Source: Blastochloris tepida (lineage in GTDB: Bacteria > Pseudomonadota > Alphaproteobacteria > Rhizobiales > Xanthobacteraceae). From it: DNA of 64,000 nucleotides. Positions within the stretch are counted from its first letter, which is position 1, and every line of letters begins with the position of its first letter. Both the position numbers and the translations under genes were made by a program. Positions 19,845 to 41,692 of the stretch are shown piece by piece. The notes beneath the pieces are model-generated. The model did not search any database and had not been told where the DNA came from. It saw only the letters and a program-made list of their open reading frames with translations. The stretch lies in the NCBI RefSeq assembly GCF_003966715.1, contig NZ_AP018907.1:856001-920000 (forward strand). The letters are read 5' to 3'.

Positions 19845-20455
19845 TTCGGATCTCCGAAGGTGATCTGGACGAACGGCTCGCCTGCTGCGTCGACGATCCA
19901 GCGGGCAGCCAGTTCAAGAGGCAGCACGATCATGGCCCCGCGCTTCGACTGAAAGGAGCCAGCCAAGTTGAAATCCAATATCGTGTCGCCGGGACCTGCT
20001 TCGCCGTCCGGCCAGATGATGAAAAACTTGCTTGCCTCTTCCGGATCATCCTTACCGAACAAAATGTGGTCCGCGAGCCACCGCGAGCGCCGTCCCCAAG
20101 ACGGGGTCGGCTGACTCTGCCCCCCCAAATCGAAGGTCTTCTCATGCTTCGAGAACGGCGCCTTCTCATGATCGCCCTCATAGGCGGCGATCAGACGCAG
20201 GCAATGCCACGCCAAATGCAGCCCTGCCCCGCGCGAAAATGCCTTCGCCCGCTTGGGGCCAAGACCCACGTCGGCGCAGGTCTTGAGCACCCACAGCTCG
20301 CACAGGTCGAACAGGTCATACCGGGCCATGCCCTCCGACGACGGCAGATGGCCTTCACGCCGCCAGTCGCGCTGAGTGACACGGGCGACGCCCGAGATTT
20401 CCTCCGCACGGGTGGGGCCGAACTTCTTCAGGGTATAGGCAAATTGCGCGCGCAT
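19841..20455 (-). CDS. Phage-type regulator-like protein of unknown function
   Basis: 204 residues. The N-terminal FGPTRAEEISGVARVTQRDW followed by YDLFDLCELWVLKTCADVGL resembles a MerR-like HTH plus coupling helix; the rest (about 90-204) matches nothing I recognise. It overlaps the next gene by 4 bp. The 180 bp upstream (20,456-20,634) has no gene and probably carries the promoter of this operon. Confidence 0.6.
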   Translation of the reverse strand: MRAQFAYTLKKFGPTRAEEISGVARVTQRDWRREGHLPSSEGMARYDLFDLCELWVLKTCADVGLGPKRAKAFSRGAGLHLAWHCLRLIAAYEGDHEKAPFSKHEKTFDLGGQSQPTPSWGRRSRWLADHILFGKDDPEEASKFFIIWPDGEAGPGDTILDFNLAGSFQSKRGAMIVLPLELAARWIVDAAGEPFVQITFGDPK

Positions 20456-20634: not shown

Positions 20635-21030
20635 CTATGGCTTGGCGGCACGAGCGGCGCGGGCGCTGTGGGCCTGCAGGCGATCGGCGGCAGCGGAGCA
20701 GATCAGCGAGAGCTTGGCGAAGTGGTCGGCAGACGAGGTCATGCTGTCCACCAAGTCCGCCATGTCGGCCTGCGCGGTGATGCGCGCGACGCTGTCGTGC
20801 ATGTCGGGCTGCGATTGGCGGATCAGGAAGTAGGCGAGCTGCACACACGGGATGGACGGGTTGGCGTTGAAGTCCATCCACTCGTGGTGCGCCGGCGGCT
20901 TCCAGCCTTTCAGCTCGGCCCGCAGGGTGGCGATTCGTTGCTCGACATCAGCGCCCGGGAATTGGACGACGTTCGACGGGGCCGGGCTCGCCTTGGCGGG
21001 GCGTCTGCGCTTGGGCGGCGGTGTGGTCAC
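20635..21030 (-). CDS. Conserved hypothetical protein
   Basis: 131 residues with a basic, proline-rich N-terminus, the short motif NVVQFPG and a helical C-terminal part. The GTG start overlaps the preceding stop as GTGA, which decides the start. No function recognised. Confidence 0.55.
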   Translation of the reverse strand: MTTPPPKRRRPAKASPAPSNVVQFPGADVEQRIATLRAELKGWKPPAHHEWMDFNANPSIPCVQLAYFLIRQSQPDMHDSVARITAQADMADLVDSMTSSADHFAKLSLICSAAADRLQAHSARAARAAKP

Positions 21031-21689
21031 AGCGCGCCTCCCATCGGCAGATGACGGCTGGCGAGCACCCGGCGGCGCGGGGCGCGACGGCGACGCGCCT
21101 TCAGCGCCATGGCTTGGCGCAGCAGGCGGCGCTGTTCGGCGTGGGTGTCGCAGCGGGGGCGATCGGGCGGATCGTGCGGGAAGGTGACGAACTGGCGCAC
21201 GTGGATGCCGCTCGGGCGCCCTGACGGCCGGCGGTCGAGGCGTGGATCGAACAGCGCCGCCTGCCGCGCCCGCCATTCGGTGTCGAAGGTCGGATTGTTG
21301 AGCGGCACATTCGGGAAACCGGCGGAGGTCTCGGGATCGGTGAAATCCTCTTCGACGCAGCCCCAAGCGTTGTCGCCGGTCTGCCCGTCCTCGGTCCAAC
21401 CGAGGAACGGTTCGTCGTCCACGTCGGGTTCGAGGTCGCCACCGTCCTCGGGGGCGTCGTCCTCTTCGGGCGCGTCGTCTTCCTCGGCATCGGCGTCCGG
21501 TTCGGCTTCGTCGAGGACGCCCGGCGGCAGATAGCCGAACGACGGCTCGAGGTCGGGGTCGCCGTCGATCTGGTCGAGAACATCGATGGCGGCCTCGGCG
21601 ACCTCGGCGAGCACCCGGCGCAGCGCGGGCGTCACCTCAATGAACAGCCGCCGGGCATGGCTCTCCCGTTCGCGGACATGAGTGTTCAT
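21027..21689 (-). CDS. Acidic hypothetical protein, operon with next gene
   Basis: About 220 residues. A very acidic middle (Glu/Asp runs at roughly 60-110) is followed by a strongly basic C-terminus. It lies divergent from the XRE regulator, with two palindromic operators between them. The ATG at 21,689 was chosen; another at 21,716 would overlap the first operator. Function unknown. Confidence 0.55.
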   Translation of the reverse strand: MNTHVRERESHARRLFIEVTPALRRVLAEVAEAAIDVLDQIDGDPDLEPSFGYLPPGVLDEAEPDADAEEDDAPEEDDAPEDGGDLEPDVDDEPFLGWTEDGQTGDNAWGCVEEDFTDPETSAGFPNVPLNNPTFDTEWRARQAALFDPRLDRRPSGRPSGIHVRQFVTFPHDPPDRPRCDTHAEQRRLLRQAMALKARRRRAPRRRVLASRHLPMGGAL

Positions 21690-21712: not shown

Positions 21713-21767
21713 TCAACAGAATCTGTTGATAGATGCGCTCGTACCGAGCGTCAACATAAAATGTTGA
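21713..21767. promoter_or_regulatory. Twin palindromic operators between divergent genes
   Basis: TCAACAGAATCTGTTGA (21,713-21,729) and TCAACATAAAATGTTGA (21,751-21,767). Both fit TCAACA-N5-TGTTGA, 38 bp centre to centre. They lie between the leftward operon and the rightward XRE regulator/ATPase pair. The second overlaps the XRE start, consistent with autoregulation. Confidence 0.8.
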
Positions 21768-21769
21768 TC

Positions 21770-22000
21770 ATGACGCCTGCGCAATGTCGGGCCGCAAGAG
21801 CCCTGATCGAATGGACGCAGCCCCGCTTGGCGGAGGCTGCAAAACTTGGTTTATCTACGGTGGTGGATTTCGAGAAATCTCGCCGATCAGTTTCGGAGGA
21901 TGCGATCGCGGCCATCCGTCTTGCTCTTGAAGGGGCCGGTATCGAATTCATCCCAGAAAACGGCGGGGGTCCAGGAGTGCGCCTACAAAAACCGCAGTGA
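21770..22000 (+). CDS. XRE-family transcriptional regulator
   Basis: 76 residues from the ATG at 21,770 (79 if from 21,761, which lies inside an operator). CRAARALIEWTQPRLAEAAKLGLSTVVDFEKSRR is an XRE helix-turn-helix, followed by the short GAGIEFIPENG beta strand typical of single-domain repressors. It precedes the ATPase gene in the same direction and probably controls it through the twin operators. Confidence 0.85.
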   Translation: MTPAQCRAARALIEWTQPRLAEAAKLGLSTVVDFEKSRRSVSEDAIAAIRLALEGAGIEFIPENGGGPGVRLQKPQ

Positions 22001-22071: not shown

Positions 22072-23610
22072 ATGAGGTTAGTCGAAGTAGAAACGTTTGG
22101 CACGGTGGAAGCCGACAATGATGACCTCCTTCTTGAATGCTTTGAGGATCATGAGGCATATATCGCAGCGAAAAAACACGACAAATTCTTGATTGTTGGC
22201 CGAAAGGGCTCAGGAAAGACGGCAATTTTCCGAAAACTTGTTTCAGATAAGGCCTACGATTATTTTTGTCATGGCCATTCTTTTTCTGACTATCCATGGT
22301 TTCATCACGATGCCCAAAAGAAGGCTGGCGTGCCCGATGCGGAATGCTTCCGGTATAGCTGGGAATACGTTATGTTAATTTCCCTTGCTCGGATGATTCT
22401 TAAAGATGCGAACGACCCATGGTCGGAAGAATCTCTTGAGGCGATGGTCAGACTGCAAGATTTTGTAAAAGATAGCTATGGAACTACAGAGCCTGAGCTA
22501 AATAGAATATTTTCACCTAATACAAAGCTAAAGCTAAAGCCATCCCTGACTGCGGGGTTGGGGCCTGTAAGCGCAAGCATTGTTGCGGAACAAGTTGAGA
22601 TCCCAAAGCTTCCGTTGATAGTATATGAAGTTAATCAAGCATTGCTTGAGACTATAATAAGATGTCTAAATCCTAACTTTAACTATCACATTTGCTTCGA
22701 CGAGCTTGACAGGAATTTTTCATTAACTGAAGAGATTTACCGGCATCGCTTGTCGGGGCTTTTGATTGCTGCGCGAGATTTCAATAGAAATCTCCGGAGA
22801 TCTGGCAAAAATGCGTCCGTCATTATCTTTTTAAGAGATGATATTTTGAGATATTTAAAATTTGAGGACAAAAATAAAATTGTTGAGGATTCGGCTATGA
22901 TGATTGAGTGGGATAAGCGTTCCACAAGTAGGACGCTTAAGGGATTAATGGAAAAAAGGTTTTCCAAGGTGCTGGGTATCCCGGATAGTCTTGCATGGGA
23001 GGAAGTTTTCGCCGAAGATCAGCAAATGCCAGGACGACAAACGAAATATCAGTACATACTAGACAGAACATTTAAGCGTCCTCGCGATATCATAAAGTTT
23101 ACAAATGAAATACTTAGGCACTACAAGCAGGACGGCGATCAGGTGGGAAAATTTGTTAACAAAAATATCATTTCTGCAAGAGAGGAGTATTCAAAATATA
23201 TGAAGAAAGAATTGGTTGATGAGGTGCATAAGCACTTTCCGGACGAGGATTTTGCATTTGATGTGATTAGGACGATCGGGAATCTTTCATTTACGTTTAA
23301 CAAATTCAAGGAATCCTATGACGAGTTGAAAAATTTGCGGGAAGTAAAGACCGGACATTCAATTATGCTGCGTGAGTTATATAATTTTTCTGCCATCGGG
23401 TTTCTGAAAGTTGGCGGTTCGGGCGGTGGCTCAGAATGGGTATGGCGTTACGAAGACACTGAAGCTGAATATGACGAGAGAGCTACCATCTTCCGTGTTC
23501 ATAGCGGTCTAAAAGAAGTACTCGGCCTCAAGCAAGGGCGAGCAATTGGAGCTAATGACGCTCCTGTAACGGCAGGCGATGTAGACATTGAAACAGTAGA
23601 AGAAGCTTGA
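22072..23610 (+). CDS. P-loop ATPase, Sll1717-like (candidate defence protein)
   Basis: 512 residues, visibly AT-rich against GC-rich neighbours. Walker A GRKGSGKT is at residues 43-50 and Walker B ICFDELDR at 207-214. The C-terminal half is helical, with RPRDIIKFTNE near 340. The layout matches the Sll1717 family of P-loop ATPases, related to KAP/STAND-type NTPases. No membrane segment or fused nuclease is seen. GAGGA precedes the ATG. Its place inside a satellite with its own regulator suggests superinfection exclusion or abortive infection; that is inference. Confidence 0.75.
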   Translation: MRLVEVETFGTVEADNDDLLLECFEDHEAYIAAKKHDKFLIVGRKGSGKTAIFRKLVSDKAYDYFCHGHSFSDYPWFHHDAQKKAGVPDAECFRYSWEYVMLISLARMILKDANDPWSEESLEAMVRLQDFVKDSYGTTEPELNRIFSPNTKLKLKPSLTAGLGPVSASIVAEQVEIPKLPLIVYEVNQALLETIIRCLNPNFNYHICFDELDRNFSLTEEIYRHRLSGLLIAARDFNRNLRRSGKNASVIIFLRDDILRYLKFEDKNKIVEDSAMMIEWDKRSTSRTLKGLMEKRFSKVLGIPDSLAWEEVFAEDQQMPGRQTKYQYILDRTFKRPRDIIKFTNEILRHYKQDGDQVGKFVNKNIISAREEYSKYMKKELVDEVHKHFPDEDFAFDVIRTIGNLSFTFNKFKESYDELKNLREVKTGHSIMLRELYNFSAIGFLKVGGSGGGSEWVWRYEDTEAEYDERATIFRVHSGLKEVLGLKQGRAIGANDAPVTAGDVDIETVEEA

Positions 23611-23677: not shown

Positions 23678-24013
23678 TTAAGATAAAAACTTCGACCGGA
23701 TCACCGCCGGCGCCGGTTGCGGCGCCGCCTCCGCCGTCGAGGCGCTAAGCATCGGCGCCTCTTTGAGGCGGGCGGCAAGGTCGGTGAGGCGCCAGCCGGC
23801 AGCAAAGAGCCCGTGCAGCGCGGCGGTGGCATAGACGCGGGTGTCGAGCCCTTCGTTGCGCACGCCGGCATCCTTCACCCACTCCAGCCGCGCCACGCCG
23901 CGGGTGTATTTGCGCACGGCGCGCTCGGCCACCAGCTCGCCGAACCAGGCGTAATCGCGATCGGCCGGGAAATGGCAGGCGCCGGCGCATTCCATGCCGC
24001 CGACATCGTTCAA
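23678..24013 (-). pseudogene. C-terminal remnant of a GpA-type terminase large subunit
   Basis: The last ~110 codons of a GpA-like terminase: CHFPADRDYAWFGELVAE, then RLEWVKDAG and RNEGLDTRVYATAA, the usual nuclease-end blocks. Everything upstream is missing, replaced by the PIN gene. An intact but different, HK97-type terminase lies at 25,906. The fragment marks a lost phage genome. Confidence 0.75.
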
Positions 24014-24783
24014 CGGTCGGCAGGCGGTTTCTTCTCGGTCGCCGTTGGCTCGGCGCCTTTATCAGGGAGCTGGCTTCCGTCAGGTTCCCGCGCGCAGTTC
24101 GGCGTTGGGGTCGGCTCGCCCGTCATGTCGTTCTCTGAGGGTTCCAGTCCCCGCCGGTGATCGGCCTTCGAATCGGGCACAGGGGCTTCAGGTGGCGTGC
24201 CATCCGCATCGGCAGCCGCTTTGCCCTGGGGTGTCGCTTCTGGCTCAGGGGTCGGCTCGGCCGGGTCAGGTCCCTCAAACGGGAGCTGGCCTTGTTGCGT
24301 CTCCGGTGGCAGCTGCAATTCCGCGATGCCGACGACCTTTATCCCCTTCGGAGCCCGCTTCTGAATGTGCGGATCGTCCGAGTAGATGACGCTGGCGCGC
24401 TCGGTCACCGCGATGGCAATGATCTGGTCATCGAACTTCGCCTTGGCCCGCGGCATTCCGGCGGCACGTGCCGCTTTTCTGTCGGCCTCGCGAAGCGCGT
24501 GCTCGATCGCAGCGCGTTCGTCGAAGGGAACGATTTTGACGTGCTTGGTGCGGCGGAGCGTCGAAAGCCACTCTGCCATTGCCGGCCCCGCCCCGACAAG
24601 AATTTCAGCCAGCGTCGGCGTGGGGATGATGATGGTGGCCCGCTCACGTTGCAGCGTCGCGATCAGGTGGTTGACCCGCGCTTGGCAGTCCGTCACGGGC
24701 TTCTTGGTCGCAGGATCAAGAGGCGCCTTCGCGTGTTCGTCGACCACGAACACCAGGACCGCGGTATCGAACACGACGATCAC
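24010..24783 (-). CDS. PIN-domain ribonuclease (VapC-like toxin candidate)
   Basis: 257 residues. The PIN acidic residues appear in order: VVFDTAVLV (Asp6), TPTLAEIL (Glu about 60), KFDDQIIAIA (about 117-118) and VIYSDDPH (about 134). After residue 155 a long Pro/Glu-rich tail extends the protein, unusual for VapC. It starts within the stop of the upstream gene (ATGA), so translation is coupled. Family function is metal-dependent RNA cleavage. Confidence 0.8.
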   Translation of the reverse strand: MIVVFDTAVLVFVVDEHAKAPLDPATKKPVTDCQARVNHLIATLQRERATIIIPTPTLAEILVGAGPAMAEWLSTLRRTKHVKIVPFDERAAIEHALREADRKAARAAGMPRAKAKFDDQIIAIAVTERASVIYSDDPHIQKRAPKGIKVVGIAELQLPPETQQGQLPFEGPDPAEPTPEPEATPQGKAAADADGTPPEAPVPDSKADHRRGLEPSENDMTGEPTPTPNCAREPDGSQLPDKGAEPTATEKKPPADR

Positions 24784-25526
24784 GGGGCATCCTCATCGTG
24801 GCGGTCCGCCAGGATTTCGGCGACTGGGTCGGCGCGTTCTCGCCACTGGCTTCCCTTGGCGCTTCGCAGCCGAGCGACCACGTCAGTCAGCGGGGCATCA
24901 TCCAGCTTCTCAAAGTTGACGATCTTGAACTCGTCGAGCTGCCAAACTCCCTCTGCCAAACGCCGCCACTTTCCCGTGCCGTAAACCCGAATGGTGGGGC
25001 CGAAGAGGAGGTGCCCGAGTTCGCGGGCGATTTCCCTTGTCGTGTAGAGGCCGGTCAGTACACAGCCGCTCGGATCACGGAGGTTCACCGGAACGGTGAC
25101 ATCCTTGCCGCCGACCCGGATCACCTCGCCGTCGAGCGTTCCTTCCTGGGTGAACGGCCCGAATGTGATCGGCATCGGACGATTTTTGCCGGGGAAAGGT
25201 ATGACATTACACGGGGTGTCGGTGGCTAGACTTCCCGTTGCGTTGTCTGCTCGAAGCAGGTCATCCAACTCCGCGAACGCCTTCGCTGCTTCCCTTGGGC
25301 CTGTTCCGGTTCGGACACTGTCGAAACGGTCGCGCACCTTCGGGCGAGCCGGTTCGTCAACGTCGGCGACCAACACTGCCGACCCTTCCGCAACTCCGCG
25401 AAAATGAACCTGGGCACCCTCGCCGAGAAGGCGCGCAAGCGCACTGATGTACTCGGCAAGGCGCTCCATCGGGAGCGTCGCCGGCGTGTAGGCGCCATCA
25501 ATTTTGAACCGGTACTCGGCGCTCAT
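24780..25526 (-). CDS. Partner gene of the PIN protein, unknown function
   Basis: 248 residues. The N-terminal part (MSAEYRFKIDGAYTPATLPM, then YISALARLLG) and a central beta-rich part (GEVIRVGGKDVTVPVNL) are unlike antitoxins I know. It overlaps the PIN gene by 4 bp and comes first, the order usual for antitoxins. It could be a non-classical antitoxin or a sensor. Confidence 0.65.
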   Translation of the reverse strand: MSAEYRFKIDGAYTPATLPMERLAEYISALARLLGEGAQVHFRGVAEGSAVLVADVDEPARPKVRDRFDSVRTGTGPREAAKAFAELDDLLRADNATGSLATDTPCNVIPFPGKNRPMPITFGPFTQEGTLDGEVIRVGGKDVTVPVNLRDPSGCVLTGLYTTREIARELGHLLFGPTIRVYGTGKWRRLAEGVWQLDEFKIVNFEKLDDAPLTDVVARLRSAKGSQWRERADPVAEILADRHDEDAP

Positions 25527-25905: not shown

Positions 25906-27453
25906 TCACAGGACCAGGAACCCGCCTTCGCGGTCCTCGTAGGGGCTGCGCACCGGGCCGGAGGTGCGCTCTGCGAGGCCGATGGCCATGGCGAGGGCGA
26001 CCAGGCCGTCGATGCGGCCGGTGCTGCGGGCCTTGTCGATCTTGCGTGAGCCGGCCGGATCCTGGGTGATGCAGGCGTTGGCGGCGTTCCAGCGCAGCAC
26101 CGGGTGGCCGCCATGGCGCAGCCGGCCGGTCAACACGGCGGTCTCGAGCGCGTCGACTGCCGGCGCCATGTCCCTGAAGCCCTGGCCCCAATCGATCAGC
26201 GGCACCTCGAGGCCGTCGTCGGCCAGCGCCTTCTTGAGGTCGGCGATGCGCCAGCGGTCGAAGGCGATGCCCCGCACGTCGAAGTGCGAGGTCACCTCGG
26301 CGAGGCGGCGCACCACGGCGCCCTTGTCGATCGCCCGGCCGGGCGGCGCCTCGAGGTAGCCCTGATCGCGCCACAGCGCGTAGGGCACGCGGTCGCGCTC
26401 GCCGCGCTCGCGCAGCGTGTCGCCGGCGGACCAGAACCAGGCGAGCACGTCATAGGACGGCGGAGTGTCGTCGTCAGGGAACACCAGCACCAGGGCGGTG
26501 AGGTCTTGCGTGGAGGACAGGTCGAGCCCGCCGAAGCACGGGCGGCCCTCAAGCTGCTCGAGGTCGACCGGGACGGCGCCGGCGTCCCAATCGGCGGACG
26601 ACAGGAAGCGCTGATCGGCGTCGACCGGCTGGTTGAGATAGAGATTGCGGAACACCGACTCGAGCGAGGGCACGCGCTTGGCGCGGGCGGCAAAGGTGCG
26701 CATCTCGTCGATCGAGCGGAAGTCGCCGAGGGCGGGATTGCAGGCGTGCCACACCGCCTCGTCCCACGGGTCGGCCTCGGGCGGCGCCTGATAGATCACG
26801 GGGGCGAATGTGGGGTCGGCGATCACGCCGTCGCGCACCTTCTTGCCGTACTCGACCAGCTCGCTCATCACGTGGGTGGGGTCGCTCGAGGTCGTCGAGA
26901 TGACGATGGTCAGCGGCTGGGCGCGGGCGGCGGTCGAGGTGGTCAGCACGTCGAACAGCTGGCGGTTCGGCGCCTGGGCGAGCTCGTCATAGATGATCGC
27001 CGAGGCGTTGAAGCCGTGCTTGGTGCGGGCGTCGGCGCTGAGCGCCTGATAGACGCTGCCTGAGGCGTAATGGACGATGCGCTTGGTGGAATCGATGATG
27101 TTGACCATCGATTCCAGCTCGGGATCGGCGCGCACCATGGAGGCGGCGGCGTTGAACACGATGGCGGCCTGGGCGCGGTCGGCGGCGGCCGAATAGACTT
27201 GGCCGTTCCGCTCGCCATCGGCGAGCAGGTGATAGAGCACGAGGCCGGCCGCCAGCTCGGTCTTGCCGTTCTTGCGCGGCATGGTGATGAGCACCTGGCG
27301 CACCGCGCGGTGGCCGTCGTCGCGCACGGGATCGTAGATCTGGCGAATGATCGCCTTCTGCCAGTCGCGCAGCAGGAACGGCTTGCCGGCGGCCGGCCCC
27401 ATGGTGTTGGTCAGGTTCTCGAGGAACCGGATCACGCGATCAGATCGGACCAT
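25906..27453 (-). CDS. Phage terminase large subunit (HK97/Terminase_1 type)
   Basis: 515 residues. The packaging ATPase has a variant Walker A in LITMPRKNGKTELAAG and Walker B AIIYDELAQ. The RNase-H-like nuclease domain begins at GGLDLSSTQDLTALV; a second acidic site lies near FDRWRIADL. It drives DNA into the procapsid and cuts it. The start at 27,453 overlaps TerS by 22 bp. Confidence 0.93.
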   Translation of the reverse strand: MVRSDRVIRFLENLTNTMGPAAGKPFLLRDWQKAIIRQIYDPVRDDGHRAVRQVLITMPRKNGKTELAAGLVLYHLLADGERNGQVYSAAADRAQAAIVFNAAASMVRADPELESMVNIIDSTKRIVHYASGSVYQALSADARTKHGFNASAIIYDELAQAPNRQLFDVLTTSTAARAQPLTIVISTTSSDPTHVMSELVEYGKKVRDGVIADPTFAPVIYQAPPEADPWDEAVWHACNPALGDFRSIDEMRTFAARAKRVPSLESVFRNLYLNQPVDADQRFLSSADWDAGAVPVDLEQLEGRPCFGGLDLSSTQDLTALVLVFPDDDTPPSYDVLAWFWSAGDTLRERGERDRVPYALWRDQGYLEAPPGRAIDKGAVVRRLAEVTSHFDVRGIAFDRWRIADLKKALADDGLEVPLIDWGQGFRDMAPAVDALETAVLTGRLRHGGHPVLRWNAANACITQDPAGSRKIDKARSTGRIDGLVALAMAIGLAERTSGPVRSPYEDREGGFLVL

Positions 27454-27887
27454 TTGCCCTTCGCCTTCGGCGTGCCGAGCTTGAGCCCGCTGCGGTCGGC
27501 CGGCGACAGGCCGAGGCGGGTGGCGAGCGTCGCCATGGTCTTGGCGGCCTCGGTCCGGATCTTGAGCAGCGGCGAGGGCTTGCCGTTGCGCAGCAGCGTC
27601 TTGCCGAACAGGTCGCGGCTGGCGGCGATCTCCTCGGAGGCGGCCTTGTGGGTGGCCCAGGCCTCGCAATAGGCCTCGAGCAGGCCGGCGTCGGCGACGG
27701 TGATCATGCCCGGCGGCACGCTCTCCATGATCTCGCGCCACTTCGTCTTGGCGTCGTCGGAGAGGTGGTCGGGGCAGCTCGCCTCGCCGGTCGGCTGCGG
27801 CTCGGCGTGGTTGATCGGCAGGCGGCCGGGATTGCCCTCCAGCACGCGGAGCGTGGTCGGCTTGGGCTTCGGCCCGCGCGCGCCCAT
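27432..27887 (-). CDS. Phage terminase small subunit (P27 family)
   Basis: 151 residues. MGARGPKPKPT, LRVLEGNPG and LSDDAKTKWREI are typical of P27-family small terminases. It recognises the DNA to be packaged; in satellites this is the subunit that redirects packaging. Overlap with TerL indicates one operon. Confidence 0.92.
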   Translation of the reverse strand: MGARGPKPKPTTLRVLEGNPGRLPINHAEPQPTGEASCPDHLSDDAKTKWREIMESVPPGMITVADAGLLEAYCEAWATHKAASEEIAASRDLFGKTLLRNGKPSPLLKIRTEAAKTMATLATRLGLSPADRSGLKLGTPKAKGKWSDLIA

Positions 27888-27889
27888 GG

Positions 27890-28222
27890 TCAGCGTCCCC
27901 CGTTCCACCAGTGGCCGCGGTCGAGCGGCCGGCCGGTGTCGTCGCAGGCGCCGCGCGGCGCCCACGCCTCGCAGCGCGCGTTGCCGAAGCCGCCATCCTG
28001 GCGCACGGTCTTGCGGCCGTGGCAGGGCACGCACATCGGCTGCCAGTTGGAGCGCGACCAGAACAGCTTGAGGTCGCCGCGATGCGGCGTCTTGTGGTCG
28101 ACGATGGTGGCCGGCGCGCCGCAGGCGCAGGTCGGGTGCGCGGCCAGGAACGCCTTGCGCGCCTGTTCCCATTTGCGGGTGTAGCCGCGCGCGCGGGCGG
28201 AGGGGCGGGCGTCCTTGGCCAT
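27890..28222 (-). CDS. HNH endonuclease
   Basis: 110 residues. CACGAPATIVDHKTPHRGD, NWQPMCVPCH and GRKT form the zinc-bound HNH core. HNH proteins next to terminase in HK97-type phages are needed for genome cleavage during packaging, which is the likely role here. It is separated from TerS by 2 bp. Confidence 0.92.
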   Translation of the reverse strand: MAKDARPSARARGYTRKWEQARKAFLAAHPTCACGAPATIVDHKTPHRGDLKLFWSRSNWQPMCVPCHGRKTVRQDGGFGNARCEAWAPRGACDDTGRPLDRGHWWNGGR

Positions 28223-28223
28223 C

Positions 28224-28808
28224 TCAGAACGCCCACACACGGTGCTCGGCGAGCGTCGCGAGCGCGCCATCGGGCAGCTCGTCCACGGCGCCGGCGGTGA
28301 TCGTCTCGCGGTTGGCGTAGAGCGTGGCGGCGAGCTGCAGGATGGCGGTGCGGAGCGGCGCCGGGACGTCGGCGGCGCTGTCGCCGTAGCCGGCGCGGAA
28401 GGTGACGGCCACCGCCTCGCGCATGGGGCGCGTTGCCGGCCAGGCCTTGCCATAGGCCGGCACGATGCCGGCCGGCGCGGCATCGGCGAGGCCGAACACC
28501 TGATAGGCGTCGGCCGCCAGCGTCTGCACGGTGCCGGCGGCGTCGACATAGGCGATCTCGGCCACCGCCTGGCAGGGCGGCAGCGGAACCGTGATGGCGT
28601 CGGGAAAGCCGTCGAGCAGCAGCTTCCAGGTCTGGGTGATGAGCGCCCGGCCGAGGAAGCCGTCGCGGCCGTCGAGCCGCTGCACCGCGGCCTGCAGATA
28701 GTGGTCGATCAGGGCATCGTCATCCGAATGCTCGAGGCGCAGGTGCGCCTTGGCTTCCTGCAGGCTGACCGGTGACGTCCCCGGTGGCGTGATGCGGATC
28801 AGGCGCAT
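28224..28808 (-). CDS. Head-tail connector protein (gp6-like)
   Basis: 194 residues. VSLQEAKAHLRLEHSDDDALI with the following helix is the head-completion/connector fold of gp6-like proteins. It would seal the portal and offer a docking face for a tail. No tail genes are found nearby, so the tail would have to come from another phage. Confidence 0.85.
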   Translation of the reverse strand: MRLIRITPPGTSPVSLQEAKAHLRLEHSDDDALIDHYLQAAVQRLDGRDGFLGRALITQTWKLLLDGFPDAITVPLPPCQAVAEIAYVDAAGTVQTLAADAYQVFGLADAAPAGIVPAYGKAWPATRPMREAVAVTFRAGYGDSAADVPAPLRTAILQLAATLYANRETITAGAVDELPDGALATLAEHRVWAF

Positions 28809-28915
28809 GGTCTCTCTCGTGTTCGGGGGCCGGGGGCACGACTTGGGTCGCCTGCAAGCCGTGCCCCCGTTCGGGAGGCGCCGGCCCCGCACGGCGCCTC
28901 ACGATGCGATGTCCG

Positions 28916-29350
28916 CTACGCCACCGGCGCGTTGGCGGGATGGCCCTTGACCACCGCCACACAGATCGGCGTGCCAGTGCCATGGGTGCCGGAGAAGTCG
29001 GCGAGCACGCTGATGAAGCGCTTGCCGCCGACATAGGAGAGCTTGGTCACGTCGGCCGCCGGATGCGCCGCGGTCAGCGCCTTGACGATGCCGCCGGCTG
29101 CGACGGTGGCGTCGACGACGTCGGCCGGCGCGACCGCGGTGTGCTCGGCGAGGGTGGCGGTGTCGCCGTGCTTGAGCACGAACTCGATCTTGTTGGTCGC
29201 GTCGAAGGCGATGCCGCTGGCGCCGACAGCAATCAGGATCGCCGCGGCATTGAAGCCGGCGAGGTCGATCGCCACCGGGGCGTTGTCGACCGAGAGCGTG
29301 GCGGGGCCGATCGCCAGGACCGGCCCGAGATTGGGCGAGAGGCTGCGCAT
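28916..29350 (-). CDS. Hypothetical phage structural protein
   Basis: 144 residues, Ala/Val-rich and beta-like, located between capsid and connector in the operon. The position suggests a minor head or decoration protein. No domain recognised. The 107 bp after its stop have no gene. Confidence 0.6.
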   Translation of the reverse strand: MRSLSPNLGPVLAIGPATLSVDNAPVAIDLAGFNAAAILIAVGASGIAFDATNKIEFVLKHGDTATLAEHTAVAPADVVDATVAAGGIVKALTAAHPAADVTKLSYVGGKRFISVLADFSGTHGTGTPICVAVVKGHPANAPVA

Positions 29351-29374
29351 GGTGATGTCTCCTGCGGCTGCTGG

Positions 29375-30556
29375 TCAGGCGGTGGCGATCTTGAGCTTCC
29401 GGATCGCCTCGGCCCGGCGGACGCCGCCGGCGACGCGACGGCGGCCGTGGAAGCGGACGCGGCCCTTGGTGCGCTGGGTGTAGTCGTCGCGGACGATCGA
29501 CAGCGCGATGCGGTCGAAGATACGGTAGCCGACGCTGAAGTCGCCGAACGCGATCGGGAAGGCATTGGCGACCACATCCGGCATGTCCGGCGCCTCGACC
29601 ACCGGGCGGCCGAGAATGGTGGTGGCCGGCGCACCGGCGAGGCCCGCGGCGGTCTGGACGAGGTACTGACCCTGGCCGTCCTTCAGCTTGCGGATGGCGC
29701 CGAGCGTCGCCGAGTTCATCATCCACACGCCGTTGAGGCGGTAGGCCGGCTTGACGGCATGGTAGAGGTCGATCAGGCCGTCCGGCTTGATCACGCTGGC
29801 ATCGCCGCCGGGGGTGTAGGAGACGCCGGTGTCGGCCATGAAGCCCATCGGACGCTTCACGCCGGAGCCGGTGACGAACGCCGTGCCCTCGGCGAGGCCG
29901 AACGCCTCGGCGAACTCGAGCGCGAGTTCGGAGGCCACGTCGATCGCGGCGTCCTCGAGCATCTGCAGCGAGACGTCGACATAGGTCGCCAGCTCGTGCA
30001 CGGGATAGCTCTGCGCGCCGTACTGGACCGTGGTCTCGGGCCGGTCTTCGTCCTCGGCCACCCAGGTCGCCGAGGCGGCGCTGGCGCGGCGGAGCATGGT
30101 GACGCTGGGCGCCGAGGTGCTGCGCACGGTGGCGACCTGGCGCACCGGCGAGAACAGCACGAGGTTCTTGTCGATCTCGGCGACGAACTCGGGCGGCGCC
30201 AGATAGCCGGCCTGGGAATCGTCGGCGAGCCGCAGCGCCTTGCGCTCGACATCGCCCATCGCCTCGCGGCCGGTGCGCAGGAACGCCTCGAACGCCTTGG
30301 TCTCGAGCGCCGGCGTCTTGTCCGGCTCCGGATCGCCCGAACCGGGGCGATTGAGCTTGAGTTCGATCTTGTCGAGCCGCTCGGCCAGCTTGTCGGCGGT
30401 CGCCGTCTTCGCCTCGAGGCCCTTCAGGCGGTCGTCGACGGTCTTGGTGAGGTCGGCGAGCGCCTTGGTGACGAGGTCGCCCGCGTCGTCGGCCGGCGGG
30501 GCGCCTTCGCCCTTCAACTCGATGCCGCCGGGCAGCGGCCGGATATGCGTCGTCAT
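29375..30556 (-). CDS. HK97-family major capsid protein
   Basis: 393 residues. An N-terminal coiled-coil scaffold domain (about residues 30-72, rich in Leu/Lys/Glu) precedes the HK97 fold with YVDVSLQMLEDAAIDVASEL and GFMADTGVSY. The N-terminal domain would be removed by the adjacent protease. The start at 30,556 gives the usual length. Confidence 0.93.
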   Translation of the reverse strand: MTTHIRPLPGGIELKGEGAPPADDAGDLVTKALADLTKTVDDRLKGLEAKTATADKLAERLDKIELKLNRPGSGDPEPDKTPALETKAFEAFLRTGREAMGDVERKALRLADDSQAGYLAPPEFVAEIDKNLVLFSPVRQVATVRSTSAPSVTMLRRASAASATWVAEDEDRPETTVQYGAQSYPVHELATYVDVSLQMLEDAAIDVASELALEFAEAFGLAEGTAFVTGSGVKRPMGFMADTGVSYTPGGDASVIKPDGLIDLYHAVKPAYRLNGVWMMNSATLGAIRKLKDGQGQYLVQTAAGLAGAPATTILGRPVVEAPDMPDVVANAFPIAFGDFSVGYRIFDRIALSIVRDDYTQRTKGRVRFHGRRRVAGGVRRAEAIRKLKIATA

Positions 30557-30561
30557 GGTCT

Positions 30562-31065
30562 TCACCTCTTCAGCGCCGCGGCGGCGCGGTTGATCGCGTC
30601 GGCGAGCGCGAGGGCTGCCGCCGCGGACTTGGCGCCGGTCACCCGCGCGCCGGGATGGCAGGGAATGGAAACGAGGCTGATCTCGGCGAGGTCGACGGCG
30701 GCGATGGTGCGGCCACCGCCGCGGCGCGGCGCCGCCTTCCGGGCGATGAAGCCGATCGACAGGCCGGTGACGGCGCCGGCCTGCACCATGGCGCGGACCT
30801 CGCGGGCACGGGCGATGTCGTCGACCAGCAGCCGGCCCGTCACGTGCAGGCCGACCGCGTCCTCGGTGACGTCGGTCCACGCCCCGACCACGTCGTTCGG
30901 GTCATGCCCGAACAGCATCGGCAGCGGCGCCTTGGCGGTGGCGAAGGCGCCGGGCTGCATCACGTCGCCGGCCCGGTCGGGCGAGCCGAACGGCCAAGCG
31001 AGGCCGGTGATCAGCCCGGCCTCGTCAACGGCGAGCGTTGCCTTGATCTCGACGCGCACCGTCAT
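30562..31065 (-). CDS. HK97-family prohead protease
   Basis: 167 residues. The conserved His in PMLFGHDPNDVVGAW, the Ser in VTGLSIGF and the acidic residue in LAEISLVSIPC form the assemblin-like active site. It cleaves the capsid scaffold domain after assembly. The ATG overlaps the portal stop as ATGA. Confidence 0.92.
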   Translation of the reverse strand: MTVRVEIKATLAVDEAGLITGLAWPFGSPDRAGDVMQPGAFATAKAPLPMLFGHDPNDVVGAWTDVTEDAVGLHVTGRLLVDDIARAREVRAMVQAGAVTGLSIGFIARKAAPRRGGGRTIAAVDLAEISLVSIPCHPGARVTGAKSAAAALALADAINRAAAALKR

Positions 31066-32282
31066 GACGTCGCCCCCGGAGTGGCGGCGGCGCCGGGGGT
31101 GATCGCCGGGTTCGCGTAGACCTCGCCGCCGGGATAGGGCGCCAGCCGCTCCCACGTCCGGGCGGTGTTGGGGTTGATGACGCGCGCGGCGATGAGCTGC
31201 GAATAGGCGGTGGCGCGATCGGCGATGTTGGCCTGGGTGAGGTCGTCCTCGTCGAACTCGATCACCAGCCCGGACTTGCGCTCGTCCGGCGTCAAGAGCG
31301 CCCGGCGCAGCGCCGACTCCCAGGCCCGCAACATCGGCTGCAGGCAGAACACCAGGAACTCGCGGCCGAGGCTCTCGACATTGCCCCAGGTCGCCCGCTC
31401 GAGTTCGAACAGCATGTGCGGCGGCACGCGGAACGCCCGCGCGATCTCCAGCACCTGATAGCGCCGCAGCTCGAGGAACTGCAGGTCGACCGAGCTGAAG
31501 GTCAGCGGCATGAACTCCATGCCGTCTTCCAGGATGAGGGTGTTGCCGCTCTTGTCGGTGCCGCTGTAGACCGCCTGGAAGCTGTCCTTGAGCCGCTTCA
31601 GCGCCGCCTCGCCGAGCGTCTTGCCGTACTTCAGCACGCCGCCGGGACGGGCGCCGGCGGCGAACAGCTTGCCGGCGTGGCGCTCCATCACCAGCGCGAG
31701 GCCGATCGCCTCGCGGGCGAGCGTCAGCGGCGCACGGCCGACCGCGCCGAACGCGGTCACGGCGATGCAGTCGCCGGCCGCCAGCTCGCGCGGGCCGTCG
31801 GCGGTGTTGAGCTTGAACGCCGGCTCGCCGGTCGCGGCGTCGCGGGTGACGCTGAACGTGCCCGGCCGGTAGCGGATCAGCTCGCGCGGCGCGCCATTGA
31901 CGCGGTTGACCCACACCAGGGCGCCGGCGTCGTTGGTGAGCGCGTCGATGGTGGCGCCGAGGAAGCCGTCATAGGCGCCGGTCCAGTCGTTCCACTCGCC
32001 CGACAGCAGCGCCTGGGCGGGATGATCGGGCACCGGCACCCGCGAGCCATCGGCCGCCACCCGGTAGACGGAGCGCGGCAGGCAGGCGACCGCCTCGCCG
32101 ATCGCGCGGGTGGCGCAGGCCACCGCCGGCACCCGCAGCGCGGTCTCGGGCGTCACGACGGCGCCGGCGGCGGTCGGCGCGGCGCCGAACAGGGCAAGCA
32201 GCTCGGGCGAGGACGCGGTGAGCGAGACCGGCCCCGCGGCCTTGGTCTCGAGCCCCAGCAACTTGCGAATGTCGTCGAACAT
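31062..32282 (-). CDS. HK97-family portal protein
   Basis: 406 residues. SVYRVAADG, the GTDKSGNTLILEDGMEF block and the FRVPPHMLFELERATWGN to QPMLRAWE region are characteristic. It forms the dodecameric DNA entry vertex. First gene of the leftward head/packaging operon. Confidence 0.93.
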   Translation of the reverse strand: MFDDIRKLLGLETKAAGPVSLTASSPELLALFGAAPTAAGAVVTPETALRVPAVACATRAIGEAVACLPRSVYRVAADGSRVPVPDHPAQALLSGEWNDWTGAYDGFLGATIDALTNDAGALVWVNRVNGAPRELIRYRPGTFSVTRDAATGEPAFKLNTADGPRELAAGDCIAVTAFGAVGRAPLTLAREAIGLALVMERHAGKLFAAGARPGGVLKYGKTLGEAALKRLKDSFQAVYSGTDKSGNTLILEDGMEFMPLTFSSVDLQFLELRRYQVLEIARAFRVPPHMLFELERATWGNVESLGREFLVFCLQPMLRAWESALRRALLTPDERKSGLVIEFDEDDLTQANIADRATAYSQLIAARVINPNTARTWERLAPYPGGEVYANPAITPGAAATPGATS

Positions 32283-32722: not shown

Positions 32723-33388
32723 CTACCGACGCAGGTGCGGGCTCGACCTCGCCCCGGGCTCCCATCGCCAAGCCTCTTGCGTGGTCTTCGCTGCGGCGAC
32801 GCTGCAGGAAGAAACATCTGTGCTCTTCGTGGGGCTCACCGTTTTGGCCGTTTTGAACCCTATCGGGCGGTGTGCGGTCGGGCCGCACTTGATCCACGCC
32901 CGCCACTCGGGCGAGACGATCTCGATGAGGTTCGGCAGGTTCTTCTGACCGGGGCGCGGACGCGCGGTCACCTTGATCAGGCCGAGGCGGCCGGCCGCGC
33001 GCAGCGCGTTCTGCACGGTGGAGCGGCAGACGCCGGCGAGCGCGGCAATCTGATCGTTGGGCCGGTCGCTGATGCCGCGGTGCTTCACGTCGCCCGCGAT
33101 GATGGCGAGCACGGCGCGCTCGCCCTCGGTGAACAGGGCGCGCAAGTCGGACGGCATGGGCGACGAGCTGCCGAGCATGCGGCGACGCCTGCGAGATGCC
33201 TCGTGGTCAGGCGAGCGCGGGTGCCGGCGCGGCGGGAAGCGACGCACAATCGGTCTGTCGGGAGACTGGGCGCGTCCGCCCGGCGCATCGGGGATGCTGT
33301 CGGGATCGACGCCAGCGGCCTGACACATCGCGAGGAAGCCGGCCTTCGATGACGTCGGGCTGGCGAAGTTGCGGAAGGCGTCAGCCAT
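32723..33388 (-). CDS. Winged-HTH replication/regulatory protein
   Basis: 221 residues. The region TEGERAVLAIIAGD to RPNDQIAALAGVCRSTVQNALRAAGRLGLI is a winged helix-turn-helix of the kind found in phage replication initiators; the wing follows in ITVTARPRPGQ-like sequence (read here as VTARPRPGQKN). The upstream gene overlaps by 8 bp. It could be the initiator of the left element or a regulator of the capsid operon. Confidence 0.6.
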   Translation of the reverse strand: MADAFRNFASPTSSKAGFLAMCQAAGVDPDSIPDAPGGRAQSPDRPIVRRFPPRRHPRSPDHEASRRRRRMLGSSSPMPSDLRALFTEGERAVLAIIAGDVKHRGISDRPNDQIAALAGVCRSTVQNALRAAGRLGLIKVTARPRPGQKNLPNLIEIVSPEWRAWIKCGPTAHRPIGFKTAKTVSPTKSTDVSSCSVAAAKTTQEAWRWEPGARSSPHLRR

Positions 33389-33794
33389 GACGCACCCCCA
33401 CCGCCGGCACAGCCGCAACCGCGGCCTTGAACGTCGCGAAGACGCCGAGGGGGGCGTCGTCGGCATCGAAGGCCGCAAAGCCGGCGCCAGCGGGCTCCAC
33501 CCGGCCGGCCCGGCGGGTGCCGTCATAGACGCTGACGGGCCGGCGAGCTTCTTGCCGGCGCCCGCTGCCCCGGCTACCGTTGTCGGTGTTCTGCTGCCGA
33601 GCAGGAGCGTCACGACTGACCCCGCGCGCCGAGCCACCGGCCGCGGGGTTCTCGTTCTTGGGGGTGTTCGGGCCGCTCTGGAGTTTGGGGGAGAGTTCAG
33701 AATTGCATTGAGAATCAATGCCTCGCTCTGACCCCAAATTGTGACCTAAACCATTGCCATTGCCTGAAATAGGCGCTTCCCTAGGGAGCGCCAA
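33381..33794 (-). CDS. Hypothetical protein, possibly 5'-truncated
   Basis: 137 residues from a TTG. Only the C-terminal block (VSVYDGTRRAGRVEPAG, then AAFDADDAPLGVF) looks like a conserved small phage/island protein. The frame stays open upstream to about 34,045 without ATG or GTG. The 5' end lies on the attachment-like palindrome at 33,772, so the gene may have been cut by recombination. Confidence 0.45.
   Translation of the reverse strand: MALPREAPISGNGNGLGHNLGSERGIDSQCNSELSPKLQSGPNTPKNENPAAGGSARGVSRDAPARQQNTDNGSRGSGRRQEARRPVSVYDGTRRAGRVEPAGAGFAAFDADDAPLGVFATFKAAVAAVPAVGVRHG
33772..33793. repeat. Possible internal attachment core
   Basis: CCCTAGGGAGCGCCA (33,779-33,793) is identical to the last 15 nt of tRNA-Glu. 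It sits in a near-palindrome, GGCGCTTCCCTAGGGAGCGCC. It lies where the gene content changes from the leftward capsid module to the rightward replication module. Confidence 0.45.
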
Positions 33795-34195: not shown

Positions 34196-34516
34196 GTGGG
34201 AACGGTGAAATCGCGAAGCAGGAAAGGTGTTCCGGCGCCGCCGTGTGGATTCGGCGCGCTGACGGTCCCCGAAGCTGCGGCCTATCTCAGGGTGTCGCGT
34301 TCATCAGTTTACAATCTCTTCGAGCGTGGCGACCTGCGGCCGATCAAAGTCGGCGGCCGGACGCTTATCCGGAAGGCGGATGTCGACGCGCTGCTTGACC
34401 GTGAGGCCAGGACTTCGGGGCCGTGGGCACGGTCGAATCGCGGCGAGGCGGCGCGAGCGGCCCGCACGGCGTCGGCGTCGGCGTCGGCGTCGGCCGCGGT
34501 CGACGTGTTTGCCTGA
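34196..34516 (+). CDS. Excisionase-family (MerR-like) DNA-binding protein
   Basis: 106 residues. LTVPEAAAYLRVSRSSVYNLFERGDL followed by GRTLIRKADVDALL is the standard Xis/MerR-type HTH of mobile elements. An Ala/Ser repeat tail follows (about 88-103), encoded by a GGCGTC tandem repeat. It opens the rightward operon of the second module. Confidence 0.85.
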   Translation: MGTVKSRSRKGVPAPPCGFGALTVPEAAAYLRVSRSSVYNLFERGDLRPIKVGGRTLIRKADVDALLDREARTSGPWARSNRGEAARAARTASASASASAAVDVFA

Positions 34517-35822: not shown

Positions 35823-38438
35823 GTGAGCGTCAATCCTTTAGCACGGCCGGGCGCCGCGGGCAATTCGGCGGCCGACTTCAGCGAATTGCTTGCGCGGGCG
35901 CCGAAGCTGCCGCCGGCTGGCGGAAATACGTCGCGGCTGTCACCAGCTGTATTCGAGAAGTCGCAGCCGGCAGGTCCCGTGCCGGCGCCGGCACCCGTCG
36001 TGCCGCCCGGGAGGTTCGCCGAGTTCTGGCGGCTTGGATATCGCCGGCTGGTGCCGATCGTCCCGGTTGATGCTGAATTGTCGGAGCACTCGACGCTCCA
36101 CCAGCGCATCAAGAAAGACCCTCGCAACGATGGCCGCGGCAAGACGCCGGGCGTCAAGGGCCGAGACGGCAAGTGGTGCTCGTTCGATTGGGCGTCTTGG
36201 GAATCCACTGAGGCCGATCTGCAGCGTTGGGCGGGCATGGGCGCCGGTGTCGGCATCAAGTGCGGTGGCGCTGACGGATTGGTGGCGATCGACGCCGACA
36301 CTCTCGACCTCGACCAAGCCCGCACCATTCGGAGCGTTATCGAGGAGAAGCTCGGCCTGTTGCCGGTGCGCATTGGGCAGGACCCCAAGGCGCTCTATTT
36401 GTGTCGATCGTTGGAACCGATGCGCTACGCCCGCGTGGAATTCGGCGAGCGCGATGACAGGGGCCGGTCGCGCTTCCGCGTCGAGCTTCTGACCGACGGC
36501 AGACAGTTCGTTGCCGCCGGGACGCATCCGAAAACCCGCAAGCCCTACCACTGGCCGCGCCCGCCGGTGCGGCTCGACGATCTGCCGGTGTTCGAGCCTC
36601 AAGCCATCCTGGCCGTCTTGGAGGCGATCCGAGCGGCCATGCCGGCCAGCAAACCTTTGGTGCTGGAGGGCGGCAAGGGCGACGTCGACCAGTCCTCGCT
36701 GCAGGGGCGGCTGGAGGACGTTCGCCGCGCCGTCGAGGCTACGCCGAACCGAACCGAGCTGTTCCCGACGCGCGAGGCTTGGCTAGGGTTCGGCTACGCC
36801 ATCAAGGCCGCGTTGCCGGACCACCCCGACGACGCGCTGGAGCTGTTCCACGAGTGGTCGGCCCGCTGGGAGGACCCGGACGGCGAAGCCAACGATCCGG
36901 ATTACGTGACCGCGGAATGGGCGCGGTGCAAGCCGCCGTTCCGGCGCGGTGCCTCGTGGCTGTATGAGTTGGCCGAGCAGCACAGCGGCGGCAAGTTCAG
37001 CCGGGCGGAGCTGTGGTTCGACGTCATCGAGGACACCGAGGACCCGTTCGAGATCGCAGCGCGCCGGGCTCGCGAGCAGGCCGAGGGCTCGGCACCGATG
37101 CTCGCGAGCCCGGCGTTAACGGTCGTTCGCGGGGTGGTGGACACGTCCGCGGTGTCGGTGCGCGAATGGCTGGTGTGCCCCCGCTTGCCGATCGGCGATG
37201 TTGCCCAGTGCGTCGGCGAGCCCGGAATCTCAAAATCCACCTTCGCGCTTCGCGATGCTCTTGCCGTCGCGACGGGCAACGAACAGCTTCTCCGCGGCGC
37301 TGACGCATCGGGAAACCCGATCAGCCCGGAGCGCTTGCATCGCTCTGGTGCGGTCATCGTCTACAACGCCGAGGATCGGGAAGCGGAAATGCGCCGCCGG
37401 TTGGCTGCTGCCCAGCGGCATTACGGCATCACCGCAGCCGACATGAAACACCCGATCGTGCTGTGGTCGGGGATTGACCACCAAACCCTGACGATCGTCC
37501 GCCGCGACGGCGAGCGTGGTGCGATGAAGCGAGCACCGGGCGCCGACGCGCTCGAGAGCGTGATTGCGGAACACGGGGCCGTGCTGGTCGTCCTCGATCC
37601 GCAGATCAGCCTCAGTGCGGGCGGCAACGAGAACAGCAACGACGATCAGGACGCCTTGCTGCAGGAGCTGGCGCGGATCGCGACACGTCGGCAGACGAGC
37701 ATCCTTGTCGTTCACCACACCTCGAAAGCCTCGCGGGACAACAAGGGCGACATGGCGGCCGGACGTGGCGGCTTCGCCGCTGTCGGCAAGGTGCGCAGCG
37801 CCTTCACACTCTGCAACGTGACCGGCGATGGCGACGAAAAGGCTTGGGGCGTCACGCCGGCCGAGCGCCTGATCCGGCTCGACTACGCGAAAGTCAGCCA
37901 CGACAAGGTGCCGACGGGGCCTCTCGTGTTCCGGCGTGTCAGCGCTCCGGTTGGAAACGGCCTCGGAACTCGGCCAGCGACGGCCGAGGTGTTGTTCGAG
38001 GGCAACCCGCGCGAGGCGCTCAAGATGGCCGGCGACTTCGCCCCGGTGCTGGAGCTGGTGGACGTCAAAGCCCTGGCCGCGGCCGCCGGCGAAAAGCCGG
38101 TTGACCAAGCCAAAGCACAGCAAGTCGCCCGCATCGCCAATGAGCTGATGGGCGACGACGACGAAATCGGGCTCGGCGGGAATTGGGAGGTCATCGGCGC
38201 TCGGATGCGCGACGCCGGCCTGATCAAGGCCGCAGGTCGGCCGACGATTACCGGAGAGGTTCGGTCGGCGCTCGTGGGTCAAGGAATTTGCGTCGACCAC
38301 CGCGGCCGAAAAGTCCTGATCCGAATTTCAAAGCGGGGCTCCGGCGACAAGGCGCCGCTATGGATCGAACGAATTCCGGCCGAGGACACGTATGACATGT
38401 CACACACGAGCCGCGTCACACAGGAAGGCGGAAAATGA
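35823..38438 (+). CDS. Primase-polymerase/RepA-like helicase fusion
   Basis: 871 residues in three parts. An AEP-type primase domain (about 65-250) has the metal-binding AIDADTLD and a conserved His in AAGTHPKT. A PriCT-like segment follows (about 290-390). The C-terminal RecA-like helicase has Walker A GEPGISKST near 464, Walker B LVVLDPQ and LVVHHTSKASRDN. Such proteins start replication of satellites and plasmid-like phages at a nearby origin. The iteron array follows immediately. Confidence 0.85.
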   Translation: MSVNPLARPGAAGNSAADFSELLARAPKLPPAGGNTSRLSPAVFEKSQPAGPVPAPAPVVPPGRFAEFWRLGYRRLVPIVPVDAELSEHSTLHQRIKKDPRNDGRGKTPGVKGRDGKWCSFDWASWESTEADLQRWAGMGAGVGIKCGGADGLVAIDADTLDLDQARTIRSVIEEKLGLLPVRIGQDPKALYLCRSLEPMRYARVEFGERDDRGRSRFRVELLTDGRQFVAAGTHPKTRKPYHWPRPPVRLDDLPVFEPQAILAVLEAIRAAMPASKPLVLEGGKGDVDQSSLQGRLEDVRRAVEATPNRTELFPTREAWLGFGYAIKAALPDHPDDALELFHEWSARWEDPDGEANDPDYVTAEWARCKPPFRRGASWLYELAEQHSGGKFSRAELWFDVIEDTEDPFEIAARRAREQAEGSAPMLASPALTVVRGVVDTSAVSVREWLVCPRLPIGDVAQCVGEPGISKSTFALRDALAVATGNEQLLRGADASGNPISPERLHRSGAVIVYNAEDREAEMRRRLAAAQRHYGITAADMKHPIVLWSGIDHQTLTIVRRDGERGAMKRAPGADALESVIAEHGAVLVVLDPQISLSAGGNENSNDDQDALLQELARIATRRQTSILVVHHTSKASRDNKGDMAAGRGGFAAVGKVRSAFTLCNVTGDGDEKAWGVTPAERLIRLDYAKVSHDKVPTGPLVFRRVSAPVGNGLGTRPATAEVLFEGNPREALKMAGDFAPVLELVDVKALAAAAGEKPVDQAKAQQVARIANELMGDDDEIGLGGNWEVIGARMRDAGLIKAAGRPTITGEVRSALVGQGICVDHRGRKVLIRISKRGSGDKAPLWIERIPAEDTYDMSHTSRVTQEGGK

Positions 38439-41640: not shown

Positions 41641-41692
41641 CTGCTTTCCCTTCATTCAAGGCTATGCAGAGTCTCGCGCTTTCGGCTGAAAC

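Follow-up and report, generated by a model that had tools for sequence, protein, structure and literature searches.

A probable tail-borrowing phage satellite with its own head genes at a tRNA-Glu gene of Blastochloris tepida

The capsid-forming phage-inducible chromosomal islands (cf-PICIs) are described as encoding their own capsid, portal, protease, connectors, HNH endonuclease, small terminase subunit (TerS), and large terminase subunit (TerL), as being tail-less, and as having a mean size of about 14 kb (PMC10690885, PMC10803314, PMC13230959). They are also called widely distributed across Bacteria (PMC10690885), and tail-borrowing satellites are placed mainly in enteric bacteria, Pasteurella, and Firmicutes, with no alphaproteobacterial group among the main hosts (PMC10803314). 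Also described are the cf-PISP satellite-plasmids of Vibrio, which are circular, tail-less, and 15.8 kb in size and carry head genes (PMC13230959), and the Streptomyces satellites MulchRoom and MiniFlayer, which depend on virulent helpers, carry complete sets of head and packaging genes as well as direct terminal repeats, and are described as not homologous to cf-PICIs (PMC10690885). No report of capsid-forming satellites in Alphaproteobacteria was among the literature matches listed, a coverage that mostly leaves out subscription papers. In this study, we analyzed a 64,000-nucleotide stretch of Blastochloris tepida (bases 856,001 to 920,000 of the 3.95-Mb single-contig genome; here called the window), and we consider it probable, judging from its genes and boundaries, that this DNA carries an integrative phage satellite of 15.8 kb, which would supply its own head and depend on borrowed tails. 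The best reading is that this putative satellite belongs to an alphaproteobacterial satellite lineage.

The first-pass annotation of this DNA had proposed a single leftward head and packaging operon with overlaps, and this was borne out: all eight genes lie on the minus strand where it placed them, running from 32,282 down to 25,906, all are open, the family scans agree, and neighboring genes overlap by 4 and 22 bp or are separated by gaps of 1 to 107 bp. The operon begins with the portal gene (31,062 to 32,282; PF04860; phrog_12, 1e-84), the prohead protease gene (30,562 to 31,065; phrog_80, 2e-46), and the gene for an HK97 major capsid protein (29,375 to 30,556; TIGR01554, 3e-103; phrog_10, 4e-78). 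These are followed by a gene for a 144-amino-acid (aa) jelly-roll capsid cement or decoration protein (28,916 to 29,350; phrog_5707, 1e-10), the model of which has a predicted local distance difference test score of 94 and which matches capsid chains of Carin1, Agrobacterium phage 7-7-1, and a Bordetella phage. The remaining genes encode a head-tail adaptor (28,224 to 28,808; phrog_442, 3e-27), an HNH endonuclease (27,890 to 28,222; phrog_2323, 2e-24), TerS of the P27 family (27,432 to 27,887; phrog_83, 3e-36; TIGR01558), and TerL (25,906 to 27,453; phrog_9, 2e-152), which contains Walker A-like and B-like motifs.

Compared with the published descriptions of cf-PICIs (PMC10690885, PMC10803314, PMC11389934, PMC13230959), the satellite has five of nine features: a chromosomal integrase with att sites; its own capsid, protease, and portal; HNH, TerS, and TerL genes; no tail or lysis gene found; and a size of 15.8 kb against about 14 kb. 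For the regulator feature (AlpA or Stl type), an AlpA/excisionase-like gene was recognized by PHROGs, with no Pfam match, and an XRE regulator lies at 21,761; for the connector feature (adaptor plus closure), the adaptor was found and head closure was not found in the six-frame scan. The two kinds of element share the capsid, portal, protease, HNH, TerS, and TerL genes, the tail-less plan, and a similar size, whereas the satellite has an alphaproteobacterial host and adds a cement protein that goes unmentioned in the passages on cf-PICIs consulted here. Full head and packaging genes are likewise its point of likeness to MulchRoom and MiniFlayer. P4-like satellites are not known to have a capsid of their own and reshape that of the helper; the window satellite has its own HK97 capsid operon. 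Among 50,697 phage records the top-scoring match was 36% identical, and all 442 matches were below 60%; among 72,556 plasmid records the top match was about 50% identical, and all 204 matches were below 60%.

The integration site is a tRNA-Glu (CTC) gene on the plus strand (17,892 to 17,967; ARAGORN), the last 15 bases of which form the att core. This core, CCCTAGGGAGCGCCA, occurs on the plus strand as attL at 17,953 to 17,967 and as an exact copy at 33,779 to 33,793, the attR of the satellite; there are exactly three copies in the window (17,953; 33,779; 55,548) and 0 in 100 shuffles. The tyrosine integrase gene of the satellite (17,980 to 19,089, minus strand; phrog_1, 3e-35; PF00589; H-x-L-R-K motif) and the AlpA/excisionase-like regulator gene (19,061 to 19,336, minus strand; phrog_25900, 1e-12; phrog_66, 3e-7) adjoin the tRNA gene, as had been claimed, and the suggestion that the left part might end at 33.8 kb, giving 15.9 kb, agrees with the att core there and a satellite of 15.8 kb. 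A longer repeat of 51 bp pairs the tRNA-Glu gene with 55,513 to 55,563 (plus strand), so that it flanks both halves of the region from 17.9 to 55.6 kb that the first-pass annotation had considered. The window could then hold a single 37.6-kb element, a larger satellite drawing a primase-helicase and cargo from its right half, where an AlpA-like gene also lies, and joint mobilization of the halves is conceivable. However, an exact att core stands at the junction, each half has its own integrase adjoining an att site (at 17,980 for the satellite and 54,108 for the neighbor), and the relatives correspond to the left half by itself, both in size and in gene content; we regard a single element as very unlikely. 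Because the att core is also present at 33,779, the satellite and its neighbor are separate elements, and the satellite is narrower than the range of 17.9 to 55.6 kb given earlier. The simplest account would be two tandem elements at one tRNA gene, the 15.8-kb satellite adjoining the tRNA and a 21.8-kb neighbor that is probably the older of the two.

No tail or lysis gene was recognized in the satellite. Its 22 proteins (21 listed genes plus an open reading frame [ORF] at 33,381 to 33,794) were scanned singly with PHROGs, and the sole tail-labeled match, from TerS to phrog_226 (minor tail protein), was weak (E value of 7e-4), with no stretch passing alone and the same protein matching the TerS family at 3e-36. 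With the integrase, TerL, TerS, adaptor, capsid, protease, and portal set aside, the remaining 116 ORFs with a length of 45 aa or above were scanned in six frames with PHROGs and matched 26 families at an E value of ≤0.01; none of the 25 listed is a family for tail, baseplate, or lysis functions. In the right part, 33.8 to 55.6 kb, no such family was found in 8 proteins searched with PHROGs and 10 searched with Pfam, a partial coverage of its ORFs. The earlier remark that no tail or lysis gene is seen from 17.9 to 55.6 kb agrees with the families listed for the left part and with the scanned proteins of the right part, and tail or lysis genes inside the island, which had been named as grounds for giving up the satellite interpretation, did not appear in the profile scans of its proteins.

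Capsid searches returned 302 relatives on viral contigs and 199 on genome contigs, of which the best 80 of each were kept; the loci analyzed were 79 viral (L033, with an identical capsid, was left out), 80 from genomes, and the window. Based on gene families built here and partial PHROGs scans, the 158 loci with the capsid family comprised 75 with tail genes, 32 without (counting the window), and 51 of insufficient length for scoring; L121 was counted as tail-less, although its label is doubtful. Five islands bounded by att sites had no detected tail gene: L119 (15.0 kb), L124 (18.4 kb), L128 (14.8 kb), L131 (18.0 kb), and L133 (18.0 kb). The sites of L119, L124, L128, L133, and L131 are tRNA-Met, tRNA-Glu, tRNA-Lys, tRNA-Tyr, or an undetermined site. 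Apart from head, connector, and integrase proteins, these islands encode 59 proteins, for which 25 listed of 54 PHROGs families all concern replication, integration, or unknown functions; three of the five islands' larger unknown proteins, scanned singly, gave no tail match. Tail genes are thus likely to be absent from all five, as far as these scans indicate. Together with the lack of tail and lysis matches in the window, these att-bounded relatives support the proposal, made before the present analysis, of a cf-PICI-like satellite that would form its own capsid. Several other candidates were set aside. L125 and L062 had at first been labeled tail-less and were relabeled when PHROGs found tape measures, and L139, L149, L153, and L186 were rejected since each has a tape-measure match. 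In L125 the tape-measure gene (14,140 to 16,758) lies directly 3' of TerL, with no other tail gene detected there. Salmonella phage As1 and Bacteriophage sp. 103231 (16.5 and 18.2 kb), which have related capsids, were rejected as satellites; both are partial genomes with annotated tail genes.

These relatives bear on the possibility that the island is a defective, decaying prophage whose tail and lysis genes were lost in place. Such an origin would accommodate the fragment of another TerL type and the foreign cargo inside the island, and some relatives with similar capsids do have tail genes: the capsid of L169 is 79 to 81% identical to those of L147 and L176, so that close heads occur with and without them. 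A one-off deletion of the tail is nevertheless unlikely because related elements in other alphaproteobacteria recur at different tRNAs as discrete att-bounded islands in which no tail gene was detected, and the head genes of the window are open and form a single operon. On a capsid tree of 79 rows with corrected labels (after exclusion of short rows, of identical copies, and of most viral sequences), built by a quick search with Shimodaira-Hasegawa-like approximate likelihood ratio test (SH-aLRT) support only, the capsid of the window falls in a set of 15 rows (SH-aLRT, 99), 14 of them tail-less (L121 among these) and 1 tailed. Tail-less heads cluster yet form more than one clade, because the tail label changes at least 10 times on this tree, compared with a mean of 24 after shuffling. 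A closed circle without tail matches also exists, and the cassettes of relatives are under purifying selection. L122 (Roseomonas genomospecies 6) and L123 (Azospirillum oleiclasticum) are 97% identical in DNA from just before the portal gene to the end of TerL, with HNH as the sole gene replaced (12,475 to 12,816 in L122; 12,550 to 12,795 in L123); outside the cassette there are short alignable stretches only, mostly of 67 to 84%, and no integrase was seen in the L123 DNA compared. The ratio of nonsynonymous to synonymous substitution rates lies between 0.03 and 0.25 for every gene of this eight-gene cassette except HNH (0.58), and purifying selection is evident. In five other pairs most genes are well under 1, the exceptions being the cement protein in one pair (1.1) and the integrase in another (0.9). 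Weighing these points, we regard decay of a prophage as unlikely. Three genes 3' of TerL are common to L122 (15,695 to 17,260) and L127 (15,695 to 17,358) and by eye resemble remnants of another phage.

The capsid also has its nearest solved sequence in that of the Rhodobacter gene transfer agent (RcGTA; 6e-48), and a cluster resembling a gene transfer agent lies elsewhere in the genome; a head cassette domesticated by the host, like a gene transfer agent or a nanocompartment and packaging host DNA, might be envisioned from these resemblances. The Rhodobacter agent is not known to have an integrase, att site, or satellite plan and makes its own tail, whereas no tail was found here and an integrase and att sites accompany HNH, TerS, and TerL genes. 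Moreover, the capsid of the cluster elsewhere in the genome is only 36% identical to that of the satellite. In a genome of the same genus (G298), 90% identity in the left flank extends as far as the final base of the tRNA, where the alignment ends, and no island DNA was matched in the 5 kb compared beyond it. Domestication appears extremely improbable in view of these differences.

For the satellite, the most likely life cycle, judged from its genes, is that of a cf-PICI, with excision, replication, the filling of its own heads, and the taking of helper tails. A helper phage, infecting or induced, would trigger excision, and a REP-like protein would assist replication. The capsid genes of the satellite would build a small head into which its terminase would pack one 15.8-kb copy, and the adaptor on the portal would dock a neck and tail made by the helper. 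The helper would lyse the cell, and the hybrid particle would take the island to a new cell for integration at tRNA-Glu. A resident prophage from 2.18 Mb is a possible helper: it has profile matches for an integrase, HNH, terminase, portal, capsid, cement, and adaptor, as well as for head closure, neck, terminator, and tape-measure proteins. Identity between the satellite and this prophage is 42% for the adaptor, 37% for TerL, 26% for the portal, and 25% for the capsid; among all matches in the set, the adaptor of the window is the best of 48 for the prophage adaptor, and its portal is only the 68th of 132. Such closeness of the adaptors can be taken as suggestive only. Divergence of the connectors was rejected as proof of matching to helpers: identity is lower than that of the capsid, with a median drop of 20 points in the adaptor and 25 points in head closure, but the cement protein also diverges (19 points), and the pairs are not independent.

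Several observations weigh against the satellite interpretation. The adaptor is the sole connector found, and head closure and neck proteins were not found by PHROGs in six frames; the helper must therefore supply both if the proposed cycle is right. A search for a co-resident prophage with a matching connector-tail interface had been proposed earlier as a check; the likeness between the adaptors of the satellite and the resident prophage (42%) is weak evidence of this kind, since among matches to the satellite adaptor across 150 genomes (self not counted) that of the prophage ranks only 16th. The tail calls for the relatives missed tape measures at first. At least 7 of the 10 changes of the tail label are forced by starred branches of the capsid tree, and the TerL-type fragment indicates some decay within the island.

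Other relatives carry part of a tail. A Nitrospirillum island at tRNA-Pro (L120; 17.3 kb) has head closure, neck, and tail-terminator genes in addition, and a Jiella island at tRNA-Arg (L161; 16.0 kb) has a tape measure. Among circular forms, Roseomonas mucosa pTT14-8 (16,883 bp) has a portal, protease, capsid (53% identical), adaptor, HNH, and terminases, with the adaptor gene split by an IS21 insertion, and no match to our profiles for tail, cement, or integrase; at 16.9 kb, circular and without tail matches, it resembles the cf-PISPs, from which the window copy differs in being integrated and having an integrase. Paracoccus marcusii unnamed5 (L236; 17,494 bp) and the circular Methylorubrum populi pMPOP02 (L237; 23,392 bp) have head, neck, tube or chaperone, and tape-measure genes, and one further gene of pMPOP02 (our family 49) is annotated "phage tail protein" and may encode a tail-tip part. 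No lysis gene is annotated in these three circles in PLSDB, where annotation is incomplete. L158 encodes head, neck, and major tail proteins, tail chaperones, and a tape measure according to PHROGs, and in L175 the same families lie between 21-bp repeats 17.4 kb apart, with no further tail genes seen and the remaining genes outside the PHROGs scan. L158, L175, pMPOP02, and unnamed5 showed no lysis genes and almost nothing, if anything, of a tail tip; they may be satellites that produce a tail tube themselves. It can be envisioned that one exchangeable portal-to-TerL cassette underlies a broad satellite lineage of the Alphaproteobacteria, graded from head only (the window) through head plus neck to head, neck, tail tube, and tape measure. 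Elements of this fullest grade would set their own tail length and borrow the rest of the tail; members of the lineage would be att-bounded islands, several at tRNA genes, and closed circles of 17 to 23 kb. Since pMPOP02 may have a tail-tip part and the PLSDB annotation is incomplete, we hold this proposal tentatively, leaning slightly against it. If true, an alphaproteobacterial lineage (soil, plant-associated, and aquatic) would widen the range of tail-borrowing gene transfer, and the tube and tape-measure grade would represent a lifestyle between those of cf-PICIs and phages. Relatives graded by neck, tube, and tape measure would allow tests of how phages become satellites, or satellites phages, and of which proteins determine whether a helper tail is compatible.

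The remaining satellite genes lie on the minus strand unless noted. Those for a PC4/p15-type DNA-binding protein (19,381 to 19,623; PF02229, 1e-12) and a small phrog_18541 protein (19,620 to 19,844; family in 8 loci of the set, window included) precede genes for a 204-aa protein without a family match (19,841 to 20,455), a 131-aa protein (20,635 to 21,030; weak phrog_7968), and a 220-aa protein with no PHROG match (21,027 to 21,689). On the plus strand are the XRE-type regulator gene (21,761 to 22,000; family in 27 loci, window included) and a cargo gene for a P-loop ATPase of the Sll1717 family (22,072 to 23,610; NF047389, 6e-96), across which GC content falls to 42 to 51%. The C-terminal fragment of a second TerL type (23,678 to 24,013; phrog_15, 2e-19, aligned to 860 to 959 of 1330; PF20454, which we take to be the lambda gpA-type large subunit) is probably a relic; a role as a conserved decoy was not supported, the similar-length search having given only the window's own protein (7 candidates, low power). 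Next to it are genes for a PIN-domain-like protein (24,010 to 24,783; phrog_21691, below the Pfam cutoff) and a phrog_19868 protein (24,780 to 25,526; PHROGs). Upstream of the portal, a gene for a winged-helix-like phrog_15967 protein (32,723 to 33,388) has weak matches to replication initiators and likely encodes one. Lengths of 239 to 266 aa among its relatives in nine further loci place the start probably near 33,388 and not at 33,157; counted from 33,157, its first 106 residues are 49% identical to part of a pMPOP02 gene.

The neighboring element (33,794 to 55,563) is likewise integrative and lies at this tRNA as well; none of its scanned proteins is a head protein. It encodes an AlpA-like regulator (34,196 to 34,516; PHROGs), the primase-helicase (35,823 to 38,438; PHROGs and Pfam), a resolvase (40,966 to 41,655), a RecD2-like helicase (47,167 to 49,365), an HD-domain protein (51,629 to 53,092), and its integrase (54,108 to 55,373). 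A 1,017-aa protein (43,503 to 46,556), considered as a possible tail protein, has no family match and no match in phage records. It occurs on one viral contig only, as an identical protein, and, besides the present genome, in 3 of 149 genomes of the order. There are 93 further relatives, some of which lie on contigs of 46 to 49 kb and all of which are "hypothetical protein" wherever named; the protein perhaps belongs to an undescribed phage. Directly beyond the outer att site lies a further integrase-like gene (55,730 to 57,481), which points away from it.

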